Shown: piece by piece, positions 5,814-13,608 of the stretch
Layout of the letters: each line of letters begins with the position of its first letter
Numbering within the stretch: the stretch's first letter is position 1
Notes under the pieces: generated by a model
Told to the model about the DNA's origin: nothing
What the model saw: only the letters and a program-made list of their open reading frames with translations
The model's database searches: none
Origin: Micromonosporaceae bacterium
Lineage (GTDB): Bacteria > Actinomycetota > Actinomycetes > Mycobacteriales > Micromonosporaceae
NCBI GenBank assembly: GCA_009380105.1
Contig: WHSM01000003.1
Span: 1 to 39,317 of the forward strand
Length of the DNA: 39,317 nucleotides
Direction: 5' to 3'
Made by a program: the position numbers and the translations under genes

Positions 5814-8333
5814 TCAGAGTTGGTCTACGGCCGTGATTTCGAAGACGGCCTCGCCGGCCTCGTCGGAGGCCGCCAGGTCCACCGACGCGCTGATGCCCCA
5901 GTCGTGGTCGCCGTCCGGGTCGTCGAAGATCTGCCGCACCCGCCACTCGCCGGGCTCCTCGGTGATGAGCAGCAGCTTCGGGCCCCGCGCGTCCGGCCCG
6001 GTCCCGATGGCGTCGTGCTGCTCCCAGTACGGCTCCAGCGCCGTCTCCCACGCCTCGGCGTCCCATTCGGAGTCGGCGTCGAGGGCGGCGAGGTCGTGGT
6101 AGCGGCGCAGCGCGGCCAACTCGACCCGGCGGAACAGCGCGTTGCGCACCAGCACCCGGAACGCGCGCCGGTTCGCGGTGACCGCGGGCGGCTTGTCGTC
6201 GGCAGGGGCGGCGTCGGAAACCGCGGCGTCGGACACCGTGGCCGAAGGGTCGCGCAGCCGCTCCCACTCGTCGAGCAGGCTCGAGTCGATCTGGCGCACC
6301 AGCTCGCCGAGCCACTCGATCAGGTCGGTCAGCTCCTCGGTCTTCGCCTCCTCCGGCACCGTCTGCCGGACCGCCTTGTACGCGTCGGCCAGGTACCGCA
6401 GCACCAGCCCTTCGGAGCGGGCGAGCTGGTAGAAGCTGACGTACTCGGTGAACGTCATGGCTCGCTCGTACAGGTCGCGGGCCACGGACTTGGGCGACAG
6501 CTCGTGCTCGCTGACCCAGGGGTGCCCGCGACGGTACATCTGGTACGCCTCGTCGAGCAGCTCGGCGAGGGGTTTCGGGTGGGTGACGTCCTCCAGCAGG
6601 GCCATCCGCTCGTCGTACTCGATGCCCTCGGCCTTCATGGCCGCCACGGCCTCGCCTTTCGCTTTGAACCGTTGGGCGTGGAGCACCTGCCGCGGGTCGT
6701 CCAGCGTGGCCTCGATCACCGAGAGCACGTCCAGGGGATAGCTGGGTGAGGCCGGGTCGAGCAACTCGATCGCGGCGAGCGCGAACGGCGACAGCGGCTG
6801 GTTCAGCGCGAAGTCGAGCTGCAGGTCCATGGTCAGCCGCACCCGCCGGCCGGCCGCGTCCGGCGTCGGCATGCGCTCCACGACCCCGGCGGCGAGCAGC
6901 GCCCGGTAGATCGCGATGGCGTGACGGGTCATGCGCAGTTGCGCCCGCCGGTCGGAGTGGTTGTCCTCCAGCAGCCGGCGCATCGCGGCGAACGCGTCGC
7001 CGGGCCGGTCGATGACGTTCAGCAGCATCGCGTGGCTGACCTGGAAGCTCGACGTGAGCGGCTCCGGGTCGGCGGCGACGAGGCGCTCGTACGTCGGCCT
7101 GCCCCAGGAGACGAACCCCTCCGGCGGCTTCTTGCGCACGATCTTGCGTCGCTTCTTGGGGTCGTCGCCGGCCTTGGCCAGGGACTTCTCATTCTCCACC
7201 ACGTGCTCGGGCGCCTGCACCACCACCGTGCCGACGGTGTCGTACCCGGCCCGCCCGGCGCGCCCGGCGATCTGGTGGAACTCCCGCGCCTTGAGGTGCC
7301 GCGTGCGAACCCCGTCGTACTTCGACAGCGCCGTGAACAGGACCGTGCGGATCGGGACGTTGATCCCGACGCCGAGGGTGTCGGTGCCACAGACGACCTT
7401 CAGCAACCCGGCCTGGGTGAGCCGCTCGACCAGGCGGCGGTAGCGGGGCAGCATGCCGGCGTGGTGCACGCCGATGCCGTGGCGCACGAGCCGCGAGAGC
7501 GTCTTGCCGAACCCCGCCGCGAAGCGGAAGGCTCCGATCTCGGCGGCGATCGCGTCCTTCTCGGCGCGGGTGCACACGTTGACGCTCATCAGGGCCTGGG
7601 CCCGCTCCAGCGCGGCGGCCTGCGTGAAGTGGACGACGTAGACCGGCGCGCTGTCCGTCTCCAGCAACTCGGCGAGGGTGTCGTGGATCGGCTTGGTGAC
7701 GTACCGGAAAGTCAGCGGGACCGGCCGCTGCGCCGAGGTCACGACGGCGGTGGGCCGGCCGGTGCGCCGGGTCAGGTCCTTTTCGAAGAAGCTGACGTCG
7801 CCCAGCGTGGCTGACATCAGCAGGAACTGGGCGCGTGGCAGCTCCAGGAGCGGAACCTGCCACGCCCAGCCGCGATCCGGCTCGGCGTAGAAGTGAAACT
7901 CGTCCATCACCACGAGGCCGGCGTCGGCGTCGGCGCCGTCCCGCAAGGCGATGTTGGCGAGGATCTCGGCGGTGCAGCAGATAATCGGCGCGTCGGCGTT
8001 GACGCTGGAGTCGCCGGTCAGCATCCCGACGTTGTCCGGGCCGAACATCTCGCACAGCGCGAAGAACTTCTCCGACACCAGAGCCTTGATCGGGGCGGTG
8101 TAGAAGCTGACCCTGTCCTGCGCCAGCGCGGCGAAGTGAGCGCCGGCGGCGACCAGGCTCTTCCCGGAGCCGGTCGGGGTGGACAGGATCACGTTCGAGT
8201 CGGAGACGATCTCGATCAGCGCCTCCTGCTGCGCCGGGTACAGGTCCAGCCCCGTCTCCGAGGCCCAGGTGGCGAACGTGTCGTACAGGGCGTCGGGGGA
8301 GGGGGCGGGAGGCAGTCGGTCGAAGAGCGTCAT
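5814..8333 (-). CDS. DUF3516-type superfamily II DEAD/DEAH-box helicase
   Basis: This 839-aa ATP-dependent RNA/DNA helicase belongs to the actinobacterial family ending in DUF3516. The N-terminal half is a Ski2/Mtr4-like helicase core: the LYPAQQEAL Q-motif region at 31-39, Walker A TPTGSGKS at 52-59, motif Ia TAPIKALVSEK, motif II DEFH at 144-147, motif III SAT at 174-176 and motif VI HQIAGRAGRAGYD. The C-terminal half matches the DUF3516 layout (all-helical, then EEPGEWRVRQIFDDPDGDHDW near the end). The ATG at 8333 has GAGGA upstream. Whether it acts in RNA decay, rRNA processing or repair is not known from sequence. It is divergent from the doxX-like gene across 112 bp. Confidence 0.88.
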   Translation of the reverse strand: MTLFDRLPPAPSPDALYDTFATWASETGLDLYPAQQEALIEIVSDSNVILSTPTGSGKSLVAAGAHFAALAQDRVSFYTAPIKALVSEKFFALCEMFGPDNVGMLTGDSSVNADAPIICCTAEILANIALRDGADADAGLVVMDEFHFYAEPDRGWAWQVPLLELPRAQFLLMSATLGDVSFFEKDLTRRTGRPTAVVTSAQRPVPLTFRYVTKPIHDTLAELLETDSAPVYVVHFTQAAALERAQALMSVNVCTRAEKDAIAAEIGAFRFAAGFGKTLSRLVRHGIGVHHAGMLPRYRRLVERLTQAGLLKVVCGTDTLGVGINVPIRTVLFTALSKYDGVRTRHLKAREFHQIAGRAGRAGYDTVGTVVVQAPEHVVENEKSLAKAGDDPKKRRKIVRKKPPEGFVSWGRPTYERLVAADPEPLTSSFQVSHAMLLNVIDRPGDAFAAMRRLLEDNHSDRRAQLRMTRHAIAIYRALLAAGVVERMPTPDAAGRRVRLTMDLQLDFALNQPLSPFALAAIELLDPASPSYPLDVLSVIEATLDDPRQVLHAQRFKAKGEAVAAMKAEGIEYDERMALLEDVTHPKPLAELLDEAYQMYRRGHPWVSEHELSPKSVARDLYERAMTFTEYVSFYQLARSEGLVLRYLADAYKAVRQTVPEEAKTEELTDLIEWLGELVRQIDSSLLDEWERLRDPSATVSDAAVSDAAPADDKPPAVTANRRAFRVLVRNALFRRVELAALRRYHDLAALDADSEWDAEAWETALEPYWEQHDAIGTGPDARGPKLLLITEEPGEWRVRQIFDDPDGDHDWGISASVDLAASDEAGEAVFEITAVDQL

Positions 8334-8943: not shown

Positions 8944-9007
8944 GTCGGGGCGGCGTCGCAGCGCATCTTCCAGCCCGAAAGCGCGAGCAGGACAGGTGAG
9001 GAAAATC

Positions 9008-10861
9008 ATGCTGCGGCACATGCGAAGTCTCAGGACGTGGGCCAGCGGACCCAGGCTGGTGGTCGTCGCCGTCGCGTTGGCGCTGCTCGGCACCGCGACG
9101 CCGGCCGCCAGCCAGGTCGCCGAGCGGGCTGACGACCAGCCCGCGGCGCCCGACTGGCGTCAGGGCAATCTGGCGCAAGGCTGGATCGACCAGAAACTTG
9201 GGCGGATGTCGCTGGAGGAGAAGGTCGGCCAGCTCTTCATGACGTACGCCTACGGCGAAACCGCCGACACCGACGCGCCCGGCGACGTGTCCCGGAACCA
9301 GAGCGCCCACGGGGTCGACAACGCCCAGCAACTGATCGAGAAGTACCACCTCGGCGGAATGATCTACTTCGCCTGGTCGAACAACGTCAACAACCCCCAC
9401 CAGATCGCCGGCCTGTCCAATGGGGTGCAACGCGTCGCGATGGACCAGCCATCTGGCCTCCCGCTGCTGATCTCCACCGACCAGGAGCAGGGCATCGTGG
9501 TGCGGGTCGGCGCGCCCGCCACGCAGTTCCCCGGCAACATGGCACTCGGCGCCGGCCGCAGCACACAGGACGCTCAGACAGCGGCCCGCATCACCGGCCA
9601 GGAGCTCCGGGCGCTGGGCATCAACCAGAACTTCGCGCCGGTCGCGGACGTGAACGTCAACGCGCTCAACCCGGTCATCGGGGTGCGGTCGTTCGGCGAG
9701 GACCCGACCCTGGCCGCCGCTCTCACCGCCGCGCAGACCCGCGGCTACCAGCAGCGCGACGGGGTGTCCGCCACCGCCAAACACTTCCCCGGACACGGCG
9801 ACACCGACGTGGACAGCCACTTCGGCTTCCCGGTCATCAACCACACCCGCGAGGAGTGGGAGCGGCTGGACGCGCCGCCGTTCCGGGCCGCCGCCGCCGC
9901 CGGGATCGACGCCATCATGACCGCGCACATCCAGGTGCCGGCGCTGGACCCGTCCGGCGACCCCGCCACGCTGTCCCGGCCGATCATGACCGGTCTGCTG
10001 CGGAATGAGATGGGGTACGACGGCGTGGTCGTCACCGACTCGCTCGGCATGGCCGGGGTGCGAGAGAAGTACGGCGATGACCGGGTCCCGGTGCTCGCGC
10101 TCCAGGCCGGCGTCGACATGCTGCTGATGCCGCCGAACATCGACGTGGCCTACAACGCGGTGCTCAACGCGGTGCGCGACGGCGAGCTGACCGAGCGTCG
10201 GATCGAGAAATCCGTCGCCCGGATCCTGCGGTTGAAGTTCTACCGCGGCCTGGCTCGCGACCCGTACGCGGACCCGAGCAAGATCGACTCGATCGTCGGC
10301 ACGCCGCAGCACCTGGCGGTGGCCGAGCAGGTCACTGAGCGGACCACGACGCTGATCGCCAACGACGCCGGGCTGCTGCCGCTGGACCAGGGGTCGCGGA
10401 ACGTCCTGGTCACCGGCTGGGGCGTGGCCACCACCAGGACGATCGGCGACCACTTCGCCGACCGCGGCGCCGCCGCGGACGTCTACTCCACCGGCGCCAG
10501 TCCCAGTGACACGGCGATCAGCAACGCCGTCGCGAAGGCGGAGGCCAGCGATCTCGTCGTGGTGACCTCGATGAACGCCTGGGGCGCGGGCAACGCCCGG
10601 CAACGCACACTGGTCAAGCAACTCGTCGCGACCGGCACGCCGGTCATCGTGCTCGGCGTGCGCGACCCGTACGACATCGCCTACTTCACCGAGGCGGAGA
10701 CCTACCTCGCGACGTACTCGTACACGGCGATTGGCCTTGAGACCGCGGTGAAGGTGATCTTCGGCGAGGTGTCGCCGAGCGGCAAGCTGCCGGTCACGAT
10801 CCCGGTCGCGGGCGACCCGGACACGCCGCTGTACCCGTACGGGCACGGCCTGAGCTACTGA
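9008..10861 (+). CDS. nagZ: Exported GH3 beta-N-acetylglucosaminidase, NagZ-like, two-domain
   Basis: This is a glycoside hydrolase family 3 enzyme expected to remove GlcNAc from peptidoglycan fragments. A basic stretch and hydrophobic core (residues 1-35, ending TPAAS) form a signal peptide. The (beta/alpha)8 domain carries the NagZ-specific loop KHFPGHGDTDVDSH (258-271), whose Asp/His pair replaces the acid-base of other GH3s, and the nucleophile Asp344 in VVVTDSLGMAG. The C-terminal alpha/beta-sandwich GH3 domain (about 430-615) makes it two-domain like Bacillus NagZ rather than single-domain like E. coli NagZ. The ATG at 9008 has GGTGAGG upstream; a GTG at 8996 is also possible. It is followed by an EEP hydrolase and an AmiE-like hydrolase. 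The function is assigned by motif; actual specificity is untested. Confidence 0.88.
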   Translation: MLRHMRSLRTWASGPRLVVVAVALALLGTATPAASQVAERADDQPAAPDWRQGNLAQGWIDQKLGRMSLEEKVGQLFMTYAYGETADTDAPGDVSRNQSAHGVDNAQQLIEKYHLGGMIYFAWSNNVNNPHQIAGLSNGVQRVAMDQPSGLPLLISTDQEQGIVVRVGAPATQFPGNMALGAGRSTQDAQTAARITGQELRALGINQNFAPVADVNVNALNPVIGVRSFGEDPTLAAALTAAQTRGYQQRDGVSATAKHFPGHGDTDVDSHFGFPVINHTREEWERLDAPPFRAAAAAGIDAIMTAHIQVPALDPSGDPATLSRPIMTGLLRNEMGYDGVVVTDSLGMAGVREKYGDDRVPVLALQAGVDMLLMPPNIDVAYNAVLNAVRDGELTERRIEKSVARILRLKFYRGLARDPYADPSKIDSIVGTPQHLAVAEQVTERTTTLIANDAGLLPLDQGSRNVLVTGWGVATTRTIGDHFADRGAAADVYSTGASPSDTAISNAVAKAEASDLVVVTSMNAWGAGNARQRTLVKQLVATGTPVIVLGVRDPYDIAYFTEAETYLATYSYTAIGLETAVKVIFGEVSPSGKLPVTIPVAGDPDTPLYPYGHGLSY

Positions 10862-10870
10862 CACACCCCC

Positions 10871-10916
10871 GGTAGGGCAGCCGCCGTCTCCTCCCCCGGA
10901 GCGGCGGCTGCCCACC
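10871..10916. terminator. Strong stem-loop after the GH3 gene
   Basis: A perfect 12-bp inverted repeat (10875-10886 and 10902-10913) starts 13 nt after the GH3 stop. Outer GGT/ACC pairs (10871-10873, 10914-10916) extend it past one bulged A. The loop is 15 nt. No U tract follows, as is common for actinobacterial terminators. It separates the GH3 gene from the EEP gene, so these may be distinct transcripts. Confidence 0.6.
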
Positions 10917-11018
10917 CTCAACCCTGTGGCGGTGGCCCCGCCCGCCCCCGTCAGCCCCCGACCACGACCTTGGCGGCCCTACCCCCGCTGCCCGCCCCCG
11001 ACCCTGATGGAGTCCCTC

Positions 11019-11894
11019 GTGAGACGGATCGTGTCTCTACCAGCCCGCCTCCTCAGCGCCATCGCCCTGACCGCCGCGTTGGCGGCCTCGGCTCTCGCCC
11101 TGCCCGCCAACGCCGCGGACGTCGACGAAGGGCGTCAGGTGGCGCTGCGGGTCGCGACGTACAACATCCAGGCCGGCGCGGGGATGGACCGCCGGTTCGA
11201 CCTCGACCGCCAGGTCGCCGCCCTCCGTGAGATCGACGCCGACATCCTCGCGCTGCAGGAGGTCGACGTGAACTGGAGCGGCCGCAGCCAGTGGCGCGAC
11301 CTGGCGACGGAGCTGGCCGACGCCCTCGACATGAGCGTGTTCTTCGGCCACATCTACAGCCTCGACCCGCCCTCGGCCGAAGCGCCGCGCCGGGAGTTCG
11401 GGATCGCGATGCTGTCGCGGTATCCGATCGTCCACGCGGAGAACCACGACATCGCCCGGCTGTCCACGCAGACGCCGGACCCGACGCCCCAGCCCGCGCC
11501 GGGTTTCCCCGAGATCGTGGTCAACGTGCGGGGCGCGCTCGTGCACGCGTACGGCACCCACCTGGACTACCGGGCCGACCCGTACGTGCGCGAGCTCCAG
11601 GTCGCCGACATGCGCCAGGTCATGGCCGAGGACCGGGGCCGGCAGCAGGTGCTGCTCGGCGACTTCAACGCCGAGCCCGGCGCGGCTGAGCTGGCGCCAC
11701 TGTGGGAGGACGTGGTCGACGCCTGGGGCGCCGCCGAAGGCGGACTGACCTACCCGGCGGCGGATCCGGTCAAGCGCATCGACTACGTGACGGTCTCGCC
11801 GTGGATCGAGGTGCGGTCGGCGGCAGCCCGCGCGACGCTCGCCTCCGACCACCTGCCAGTGGTCGCGGACGTGGTGGTGATCAGCGGTGCGTAG
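11019..11894 (+). CDS. Exported endonuclease/exonuclease/phosphatase (EEP) family protein
   Basis: This 291-aa metal-dependent phosphodiesterase or nuclease belongs to the DNase I/sphingomyelinase-like fold. The first 32 residues form a signal peptide ending PANA-AD. Family motifs follow in order: TYNIQAG (Asn49), LQEVD (metal-binding Glu81), YGTHLDYR (catalytic His), GDFNAEPG (Asp/Asn), RIDYV and SDHLPVVADV (final Asp-His). All catalytic positions are present, so it should be active. The substrate cannot be read from sequence: extracellular nucleic acid, phospholipid or another phosphodiester are all possible. The GTG at 11019 is preferred because GGAG (11009-11012) sits 6 nt upstream; the ATG at 11007 is an alternative. 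It overlaps the next hydrolase gene by 8 bp, indicating translational coupling. Confidence 0.85.
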   Translation: MRRIVSLPARLLSAIALTAALAASALALPANAADVDEGRQVALRVATYNIQAGAGMDRRFDLDRQVAALREIDADILALQEVDVNWSGRSQWRDLATELADALDMSVFFGHIYSLDPPSAEAPRREFGIAMLSRYPIVHAENHDIARLSTQTPDPTPQPAPGFPEIVVNVRGALVHAYGTHLDYRADPYVRELQVADMRQVMAEDRGRQQVLLGDFNAEPGAAELAPLWEDVVDAWGAAEGGLTYPAADPVKRIDYVTVSPWIEVRSAAARATLASDHLPVVADVVVISGA

Positions 11895-13608
11895 CGGTGT
11901 GAAGGCGGCGGCGATGACGGTCGCCGCGCTGCTGGGCGTGTCGCTGGCGGGCATGCCGGCGCAGGCGAATGACTCGGAGGAACCGCCCCACGCCGGCAGG
12001 ACGTTACGGGACGGCAGCCCGCAGCAGGCCGGCCTGGTCGCCGAGCACGTGGCCCGGATCATGCCGAGCGTGCGGGCCGGCCTGACGCCGGCGCCGGGGC
12101 GGCAGCGGCCGCTGTACCCGGGCGCGGTAGCCCTCATCGGCCATCGCGGCCTGATCGTGGAGCATGACGCGGCGGGTCACGCGGTGCGGTACGGCAGCAG
12201 CCAGGGCGCGGAGCTTCCGCCGGAGCAGCAGATCCCGATGCGGAAGGACACGATCTTCGACTTCGCCTCCATCTCCAAGCTGTTCACTGCGGTCGTCGCG
12301 ATGCAGCAGGTCGAGGCGGGCCGGATCGACCTGGACGCCCCGGTGGCCGGGTACATCCCCGAGTTCGCGCAGAACGGCAAGAGCGGCGTGACTCTGCGGC
12401 ACGTGCTCACCCACACCGCTGGTCTGCCGCCAGGGCTGAACCTGAACCCGTATCCGACGATCGAGGAGCGGCTCGCCGCGGTGTACGCGGTCTCGCTCCG
12501 GGAGAAGCCAGGTGCCCGGTACATCTACTCCGACCTGAGCATGATCGTCGTCGGGAAGGTCCTGGAACGGGTCGCTGGCGCTCCGCTGGACCAGTTGGTG
12601 CGGGACGGCGTCAGCGAGCCGCTCGGCCTGCGTGACACCATGCACAACCCGCCCACGTCGCTGCGTCACCGGATTGCGGCGACCGAGTGGCAGGAGGGCG
12701 GGCGCGGCCTGGTCTGGGGTGAAGTGCACGACCGCACGTCCTGGCTGCTCGGCGGCGCCGCCGGGCACGCCGGGCTGTTCGGCACGGCGTACGACCTGGC
12801 GGTCTTCGCCCAGACGCTGCTGAACGGCGGGCGGCACGGCGACGTGCGGATCCTGCGGCCGGAGAGCGTCCGGGCGATGCTGACCAACTGGAACGCGGCC
12901 CTGGGGCGGGGGACCGAGCGCGGTCTCGGGTTTGACATCTACAAGCACTCCTTCATGGGCGCCATGGCCACACCGCACACCGCTGGGCACACCGGATACA
13001 CCGGGACGTCGCTGGTGTTGGACCCGGTCGCGGGCAGTTTCGCGATCCTGATGACCAACCGGGTCCATCCGCACCGGTCCTGGTCGGACCCCGGCCCGGC
13101 CCGCCGCGCGGCAGCCGGCCATCTCGCCCGGGCGACGCCGGTGCGTCCTGCCGAAGGGCGCGACGCGTGGTTCTCGGGCATGTCCAACGGGCAGGTCGCG
13201 AAGCTGACCCTGGCGCTGCCGCGCCACGACGGGCCGAGCACGCTGGAGTTCGCCTACTGGTGGGACACAGAGGCGGGATACGACACCGCGACACTCGAAG
13301 CCAGCGCGGACGGCGGCGCGACCTGGGATCGCCTGCCGATGACGTTGCGGGCCGGCGACGTGGTGCGGGACTCCGACGGCACGGTCTCTGGCTACCAGGG
13401 CCGGCAATGGCATCACGCGACCGCCGCCCTGCCCGCCGGAACCACAAACCTACGCTGGCGGTACGTCACGGACACCCGCTACCTGGGGCGCGGCGTGTAC
13501 CTGGACGCGGTGCGGGTCAGCACTCCGGATCGGGTGGTGTTCGAGGACAGCCGCCCCGCGGACCAGTTGCGGTGGCGCGCGGACGGCTTCGTGCTCAGCG
13601 GCGACTGA
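11887..13608 (+). CDS. Exported beta-lactamase-fold serine hydrolase, AmiE-like, with C-terminal beta domain
   Basis: This 573-aa class C beta-lactamase/PBP-fold hydrolase has a signal peptide (1-27, ending AQA). Active-site elements are complete: SxxK at Ser128-Lys131 (ASISK), the Tyr motif Y214-S-D216 and HTG at 368-370 in place of KTG. PGAVALIGHRG, GEVHDRTSWLLGGAAGHAGLF and HTGYTGT resemble Bacillus AmiE, an N-acetylmuramyl-L-alanine amidase of this fold, rather than true beta-lactamases. After about residue 425 comes an extra domain of some 140 residues with FAYWWDTEAGYDTATLEAS and GGATWDRLP, like the beta-sandwich at the end of immune-inhibitor-A/M6-type secreted proteins. The GTG start overlaps the EEP gene by 8 bp and lacks a strong ribosome site. 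Amidase specificity is inferred from motifs and the nagZ neighbour. Confidence 0.8.
   Translation: MRSGVKAAAMTVAALLGVSLAGMPAQANDSEEPPHAGRTLRDGSPQQAGLVAEHVARIMPSVRAGLTPAPGRQRPLYPGAVALIGHRGLIVEHDAAGHAVRYGSSQGAELPPEQQIPMRKDTIFDFASISKLFTAVVAMQQVEAGRIDLDAPVAGYIPEFAQNGKSGVTLRHVLTHTAGLPPGLNLNPYPTIEERLAAVYAVSLREKPGARYIYSDLSMIVVGKVLERVAGAPLDQLVRDGVSEPLGLRDTMHNPPTSLRHRIAATEWQEGGRGLVWGEVHDRTSWLLGGAAGHAGLFGTAYDLAVFAQTLLNGGRHGDVRILRPESVRAMLTNWNAALGRGTERGLGFDIYKHSFMGAMATPHTAGHTGYTGTSLVLDPVAGSFAILMTNRVHPHRSWSDPGPARRAAAGHLARATPVRPAEGRDAWFSGMSNGQVAKLTLALPRHDGPSTLEFAYWWDTEAGYDTATLEASADGGATWDRLPMTLRAGDVVRDSDGTVSGYQGRQWHHATAALPAGTTNLRWRYVTDTRYLGRGVYLDAVRVSTPDRVVFEDSRPADQLRWRADGFVLSGD

Follow-up and report, generated by a model that had tools for sequence, protein, structure and literature searches.

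The window analysed here is a stretch of 39,317 nucleotides from a Micromonosporaceae bacterium (GenBank assembly GCA_009380105.1, contig WHSM01000003.1). Three consecutive genes on its plus strand (8996–13608) encode a two-domain protein of glycoside hydrolase family 3 (GH3), a member of the endonuclease/exonuclease/phosphatase (EEP) superfamily and a serine hydrolase. An earlier note, made from the sequence alone, had read them as a secreted trio that might serve muropeptide salvage, and the trio itself was borne out by domain searches, catalytic motifs and gene order. The source assembly comprises 632 contigs, and searches were made by family or by protein. In the light of the results, the EEP protein, at first only loosely associated, can be seen as a partner that recurs with muropeptide salvage genes and is in places fused to one of them.

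The first gene (8996–10861, plus strand; likely start ATG 9008) encodes a predicted secreted beta-N-acetylglucosaminidase of the NagZ (Bacillus YbbD) type, with the domains PF00933 (304 bits) and PF01915 (69 bits). Its best solved relatives were three B. subtilis NagZ/YbbD sequences (3bmx/4gyj; E ~1e-98). Alignment to 3bmx placed the NagZ loop KHFPGHGDTDVDSH at 9779–9820 on the plus strand, with an Asp-His dyad (D273 and H275 in 621-aa numbering) that aligns with D232 and H234 of B. subtilis NagZ. The catalytic nucleophile D348 (codon 10037–10039, plus strand) aligned with D318 of the same enzyme. The two domains, the dyad and the nucleophile agree with the two-domain GH3 with a NagZ loop described earlier. 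The NagZ equivalog NF003740 (PRK05337), a single-domain model, was the top model of its library at 170 bits, under its 207-bit cut-off.

The second gene (11007–11894, plus strand; likely start ATG 11007) encodes a predicted secreted EEP-superfamily phosphohydrolase (PF03372, 79.6 bits). The catalytic residues of the superfamily (N, E, H, DxN, D and DH) were conserved as N53, E85, H185, D219, N221, D259, D281 and H282. The protein belongs to a subfamily whose hallmark, absent from other EEP proteins, is an ITRLSTQxPNPxPxPAPGFPE-type insertion. A variant without this insertion was seen as a tandem pair of EEP genes at one locus of genome G435 (L234, 6548–8644).

The third gene (11887–13608, plus strand), which starts at GTG 11887 or GTG 11899, encodes a predicted secreted serine hydrolase of PBP4B/AmiE-like type (PF00144, 235 bits, residues 77–409). 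It ends in a MAM-like beta-sandwich domain (13132–13599, plus strand; PF20773, InhA-like MAM, 50.6 bits, residues 416–571) that is absent from the earlier note. The AmiE-like motifs named there were all present and conserved, namely the SxxK motif S128-I-S-K131 (12268–12279, plus strand), Y214 of YSD and H368 of HTG. PBP4B was the top NCBIfam model, 88 bits ahead of the next, although the equivalog NF002968 gave 162 bits against a cut-off of 385 bits; identity to E. coli YfeW was 31%. An AlphaFold model built from a five-row alignment had a mean predicted local distance difference test score (pLDDT) of 47.7 and was not used. The missed PBP4B cut-off and the names of the top single PDB matches (esterase, putative beta-lactamase) would favour an esterase, a D-Ala carboxypeptidase or a beta-lactamase, in which case the trio would not be devoted to muropeptide salvage. 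In a tree of 54 sequences, however, the window hydrolase was placed among salvage-linked copies, that is, those linked to NamZ or MurQ. E. coli AmpC and AmpH lay far outside and several other actinobacterial PF00144 hydrolases also lay outside, with deep placements unsure because of long branches. This tree used stand-ins for B. subtilis AmiE (YfeW and salvage-linked copies from Deinococcus and Burkholderia), and it did not reproduce the clustering with esterases or beta-lactamases that the earlier note had named as the outcome to watch for. Given also the lead of the PBP4B model and the gene linkage to NamZ and MurQ described below, an esterase-type enzyme outside salvage appears quite unlikely; esterase or beta-lactamase identity was rejected through the tree.

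Orthologues of the NagZ-type GH3 and the serine hydrolase lay on one strand, 1.4–2 kb apart, in seven relatives (G045, G004, G048, G011, G014, G062 and G074). The gap is filled by the gene of NamZ (PF07075; the name is taken from the Pfam family), and MurQ was nearby in G062, G074 and G014. In B. subtilis, the gene of the NamZ exo-muramidase, ybbC, likewise comes after nagZ, and E. coli YfeW belongs to the murQP-yfeW gene set (PMC5061867). The same serine hydrolase family was found within an AnmK-MurQ operon in Deinococcus aetherius and fused to NamZ in a plasmid-borne gene of Burkholderia savannae (L207, 4806–7196), the latter being a different kind of fusion between salvage enzymes from that reported below. 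A look for murQ and namZ homologues elsewhere in the genome, which the earlier note had advised, found both: NamZ adjoins a second NagZ on contig C449, and MurQ stands with a MurR-type gene on contig C368 (300 bits, cut-off 302). A second serine hydrolase is encoded on contig C273. With the NamZ/MurQ gene order in relatives, the hydrolase tree, and murQ and namZ in this genome, a NagZ/AmiE-type salvage role is well supported for the GH3 and the serine hydrolase, both of which would be predicted to act on muropeptides.

The earlier note had left open what the EEP protein, which is not part of the known NagZ-AmiE pair, does beside them; adjacency, complete clusters, fusions and co-occurrence now tie it to the pathway. 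An EEP gene directly follows a NagZ-type GH3 gene in 11 genomes from about six families, namely the window genome, G025, G052, G154, G332, G385, Saccharothrix luteola, Saccharothrix NRRL B-16348, a Nocardioidaceae metagenome-assembled genome (MAG), a Propionibacteriales MAG and Actinopolymorpha pittospori. The order GH3-EEP-NamZ-serine hydrolase-MurR-MurQ was consecutive in G385 (L231), and the Propionibacteriales MAG (L180) has the same full set plus a BadF/BadG-type kinase and sugar ABC genes. Shorter versions comprise GH3-EEP-NamZ-serine hydrolase in G052 (L065), GH3-EEP-NamZ in L129 and GH3-EEP in L193 and L130. In G332, G154 and both Saccharothrix genomes, EEP and serine hydrolase form one open reading frame (ORF) of 668–782 codons that sits directly downstream of the NagZ gene, within 5 bp of it. 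Pfam was run on three of these four fusions and found PF03372 and PF00144 in a single chain. The four EEP-fused hydrolases are the sister group of the unfused hydrolase of the window (Shimodaira–Hasegawa-like approximate likelihood ratio support of 99), and the MAM domain is absent from three of them (L107, L143 and L165). An AnmK gene lies directly upstream of the EEP gene in G481 (L237, 6237–8380).

Several further arrangements were seen around these genes. AnmK was found within about 2 kb of EEP at two Streptomyces loci (L140 and L200). At eight Streptomyces-type loci (L145, L152, L155, L172, L174, L185, L187 and L232), the solo EEP gene is followed by the gene of another serine hydrolase, of about 30% identity, which may represent a second pairing of EEP and hydrolase. 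Two tandem related genes lie directly upstream of NagZ and the fusion in G154 (L113, 10645–12831); the one scanned was phytase-like (PF13449). Genes for an M50B peptidase and a calcineurin-type phosphatase recur close to some EEP or NamZ genes.

Co-occurrence was assessed with the window EEP as query (E <= 1e-45) in 299 genomes of the order. EEP was present in 28 genomes, all 28 of which carried NamZ, compared with 77 of the 299 overall (hypergeometric p = 4e-19 by genome and 8e-7 by genus, values that ignore shared descent). The NagZ-type GH3 and the serine hydrolase were each found in 27 of the 28 (75/299 overall), G182 being the sole EEP genome without either. A class-wide sample gave NamZ in 8 of 8 EEP genomes besides the window's own, against 39 of 195 (p = 1.4e-6). 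The strict form of this test, restricted to members above 50% identity (53–60%), is 4 of 4 rather than 8 of 8, because the four weaker hits (G366, G435, G508 and G516; 41–45% identity) lack the subfamily insertion. EEP proteins of other subfamilies, used as a control in 81 relatives, showed no enrichment (NamZ in 6 of 15 genomes against a base of 25/81; p = 0.29).

At the window locus itself, a serine hydrolase start at GTG 11887 gives an 8-bp overlap with the EEP gene; with GTG 11899 the hydrolase would begin 4 bp after the EEP stop, so that the overlap claimed earlier stands for the first start and gives way to a short gap for the second. A gap of 145 bp lies between the GH3 and EEP genes and contains a strong GC hairpin (10871–10916, plus strand; no T tract; -40.7 kcal/mol for 66 nt folded), which may uncouple transcription of the two genes or attenuate it. 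Because of this spacing and hairpin, it is not certain that GH3 is transcribed together with the EEP-serine hydrolase pair. At L075, L065, L107, L143 and L165, the GH3 and EEP genes overlap or lie about 10 bp apart, leaving no space for a hairpin. The hairpin, together with the fact that most EEP homologues stand solo, could suggest that the three genes are neighbours by chance. This is highly improbable in view of the NagZ-EEP adjacency across families and the four fusions, and for the family chance adjacency was rejected through these independent genomes. The togetherness of the genes in relatives, which the earlier note had proposed to check, therefore holds for the 11 genomes and the four fusions and fails for most EEP copies. 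Judged by eye, all three proteins begin with what look like Sec-type signal peptides ending in AxA-like motifs, in keeping with the signal peptides first noted, and all three are probably secreted. Twin-arginine-like signals occur on some NagZ or NamZ relatives (L107, L129, L180 and L061, the last being contig C449 of this genome), and the window NagZ looks Sec-type. None of the minus-strand ORFs across the trio was picked by a codon-usage gene caller, and they look like the usual shadows of high-GC DNA. A DEAD-box helicase gene with DUF3516 (5814–8333, minus strand) adjoins the trio.

The predicted EEP structure was good apart from the signal peptide (mean pLDDT 83). Its fold search returned uncharacterised bacterial EEP proteins first, followed by sphingomyelinase, Nocturnin, Tdp2 and 4c1r. 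The last of these is BT3783, a Bacteroides mannosyl-6-phosphatase (rank 49, 17% identity), a sugar-6-phosphatase precedent within the EEP fold. All these matches came from the fold search, a sequence search against solved sequences having given no match at 1e-3. The fold alone does not name the substrate, since the matches span EEP enzymes of many kinds. The EEP protein might be a nuclease or nucleotide phosphohydrolase used in scavenging, with DNA, RNA or nucleotide-linked material set free with the wall of lysed cells as its substrate, and might be connected to salvage by co-regulation alone. Tdp2, CNOT6L and Nocturnin among the fold matches and a weak match to exodeoxyribonuclease III (TIGR00633, E 5e-4) point in that direction, and lysis releases wall and nucleic acid together. 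Such a role is possible but doubtful, as fusion to an amidase-type domain and nesting within NamZ genomes call for a substrate bound up more closely with the pathway than general scavenging would supply. Sphingomyelinase folds, a PF23226 PGAP2IP-type match and a weak VanJ match (E 4.5e-6, C-terminal third only) would instead be consistent with activity on lipid phosphodiesters or lipid-linked wall precursors, by which the enzyme might lyse other cells or alter its own envelope. However, the VanJ match reached 26 bits against a curated cut-off of 700 bits, VanJ is a membrane protein whereas the EEP protein looks soluble and secreted, and the linked enzymes are exo-acting saccharide salvage enzymes rather than lysins. 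A lipid substrate is therefore considered unlikely.

Taken together, the trio is best explained as an extracellular muropeptide salvage module in which the EEP protein is a true partner, a reading to which we assign a probability of about 0.72. NagZ would take off the non-reducing N-acetylglucosamine (GlcNAc), and the AmiE-like serine hydrolase would cleave the bond between N-acetylmuramic acid (MurNAc) and L-Ala in muropeptides; homologues of NamZ, MurR and MurQ are encoded elsewhere in this genome, on other contigs. As a standing accessory enzyme of the pathway, the EEP protein would most likely attack a phosphoester of the sugar backbone. The chief candidate is the phosphodiester at MurNAc O-6, where wall glycopolymers attach, or the phosphomonoester left there. 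A phosphodiester at this position is the prototype of wall-glycopolymer attachment (PMC7831098; PMC11481543). MurNAc that keeps an O-6 linkage or residual phosphate could plausibly be a dead end for NamZ, NagZ, the amidase, the MurNAc transporter and the kinase, so that clearing of O-6 would keep the exo-acting enzymes unblocked. Both the fusion of EEP to an amidase-type domain and its nested occurrence among NamZ-bearing genomes would fit such an enzyme. The release of MurNAc O-6 from linkage phosphate is nevertheless proposed only tentatively. Equally tentative is the wider suggestion that the subfamily with the LSTQxPNPxPxPAPGFPE-type insertion might be a dedicated debranching enzyme of actinobacterial salvage, joined in some Pseudonocardiaceae with a MurNAc-L-Ala amidase in one bifunctional chain. 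Literature searches, limited to an open-access library, turned up neither an EEP enzyme linked to muropeptide salvage nor a described enzyme for MurNAc O-6 clearing.

Several observations weigh against this explanation. NagZ was adjacent in only 6 of the 80 best EEP loci; most EEP copies, chiefly those of Streptomyces, stand alone and away from salvage genes, and many NagZ-NamZ-AmiE clusters lack EEP. The sugar phosphatase fold match was no better than those to sphingomyelinases, Tdp2 and Nocturnin. The disregard of shared descent in the co-occurrence p-values and the effect of the hairpin on GH3-EEP co-transcription count on the same side. As most copies are not beside salvage genes and many clusters do without it, EEP is to be regarded as an accessory of the pathway. 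Nor is it tied to one inherited operon: on the EEP tree, linkage to NagZ changed repeatedly (6 times most simply, at least 2 forced) and linked copies did not form one clade. A single inherited EEP-NagZ pair was accordingly not shown, and the tree indicates recruitment or loss more than once.

The proposed module resembles the B. subtilis operon murQRP-amiE-nagZ-ybbC(namZ) (PMC5061867) in its secreted two-domain NagZ of the same architecture, its amidase-type serine hydrolase and the NamZ and MurQ partners in relatives. It differs in the added EEP protein, in some genomes fused to the amidase-type domain, in the location of NamZ and MurQ on other contigs and in the MAM-like C-terminal domain of the hydrolase. 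In addition, the full cluster of the Propionibacteriales MAG has ABC-type transport genes, unlike the phosphotransferase system of B. subtilis. PBP4B (YfeW) of the E. coli murQP-yfeW set is the best named family of the hydrolase and is likewise placed in a MurNAc operon, although that set lacks a linked NagZ and an EEP and the window hydrolase falls below the PBP4B equivalog cut-off. BT3783 shares the EEP fold and offers a precedent for an EEP enzyme removing phosphate from a sugar, but it has low identity, a different substrate and a place behind closer fold matches. The teichoic-acid phosphodiesterase GlpQ (PMC7086022) resembles the proposed EEP role in the extracellular cutting of wall-polymer phosphodiesters; unlike the proposed enzyme, it belongs to the glycerophosphodiesterase family and cuts within the polyglycerol chain, not at the MurNAc link.

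Muropeptide salvage has been described from the side of GlcNAc, MurNAc and the peptide, which leaves the question of how MurNAc that bears glycopolymer phosphodiesters is handled. With the EEP protein fused to an amidase-type domain and nested in NamZ genomes, the O-6 question becomes directly testable. If the proposed activity is true, the enzyme could be a possible tool for the gentle detachment of wall polymers, and a sizeable group of actinobacterial proteins that at present bear only the name 'endonuclease/exonuclease/phosphatase family protein' would gain a function.

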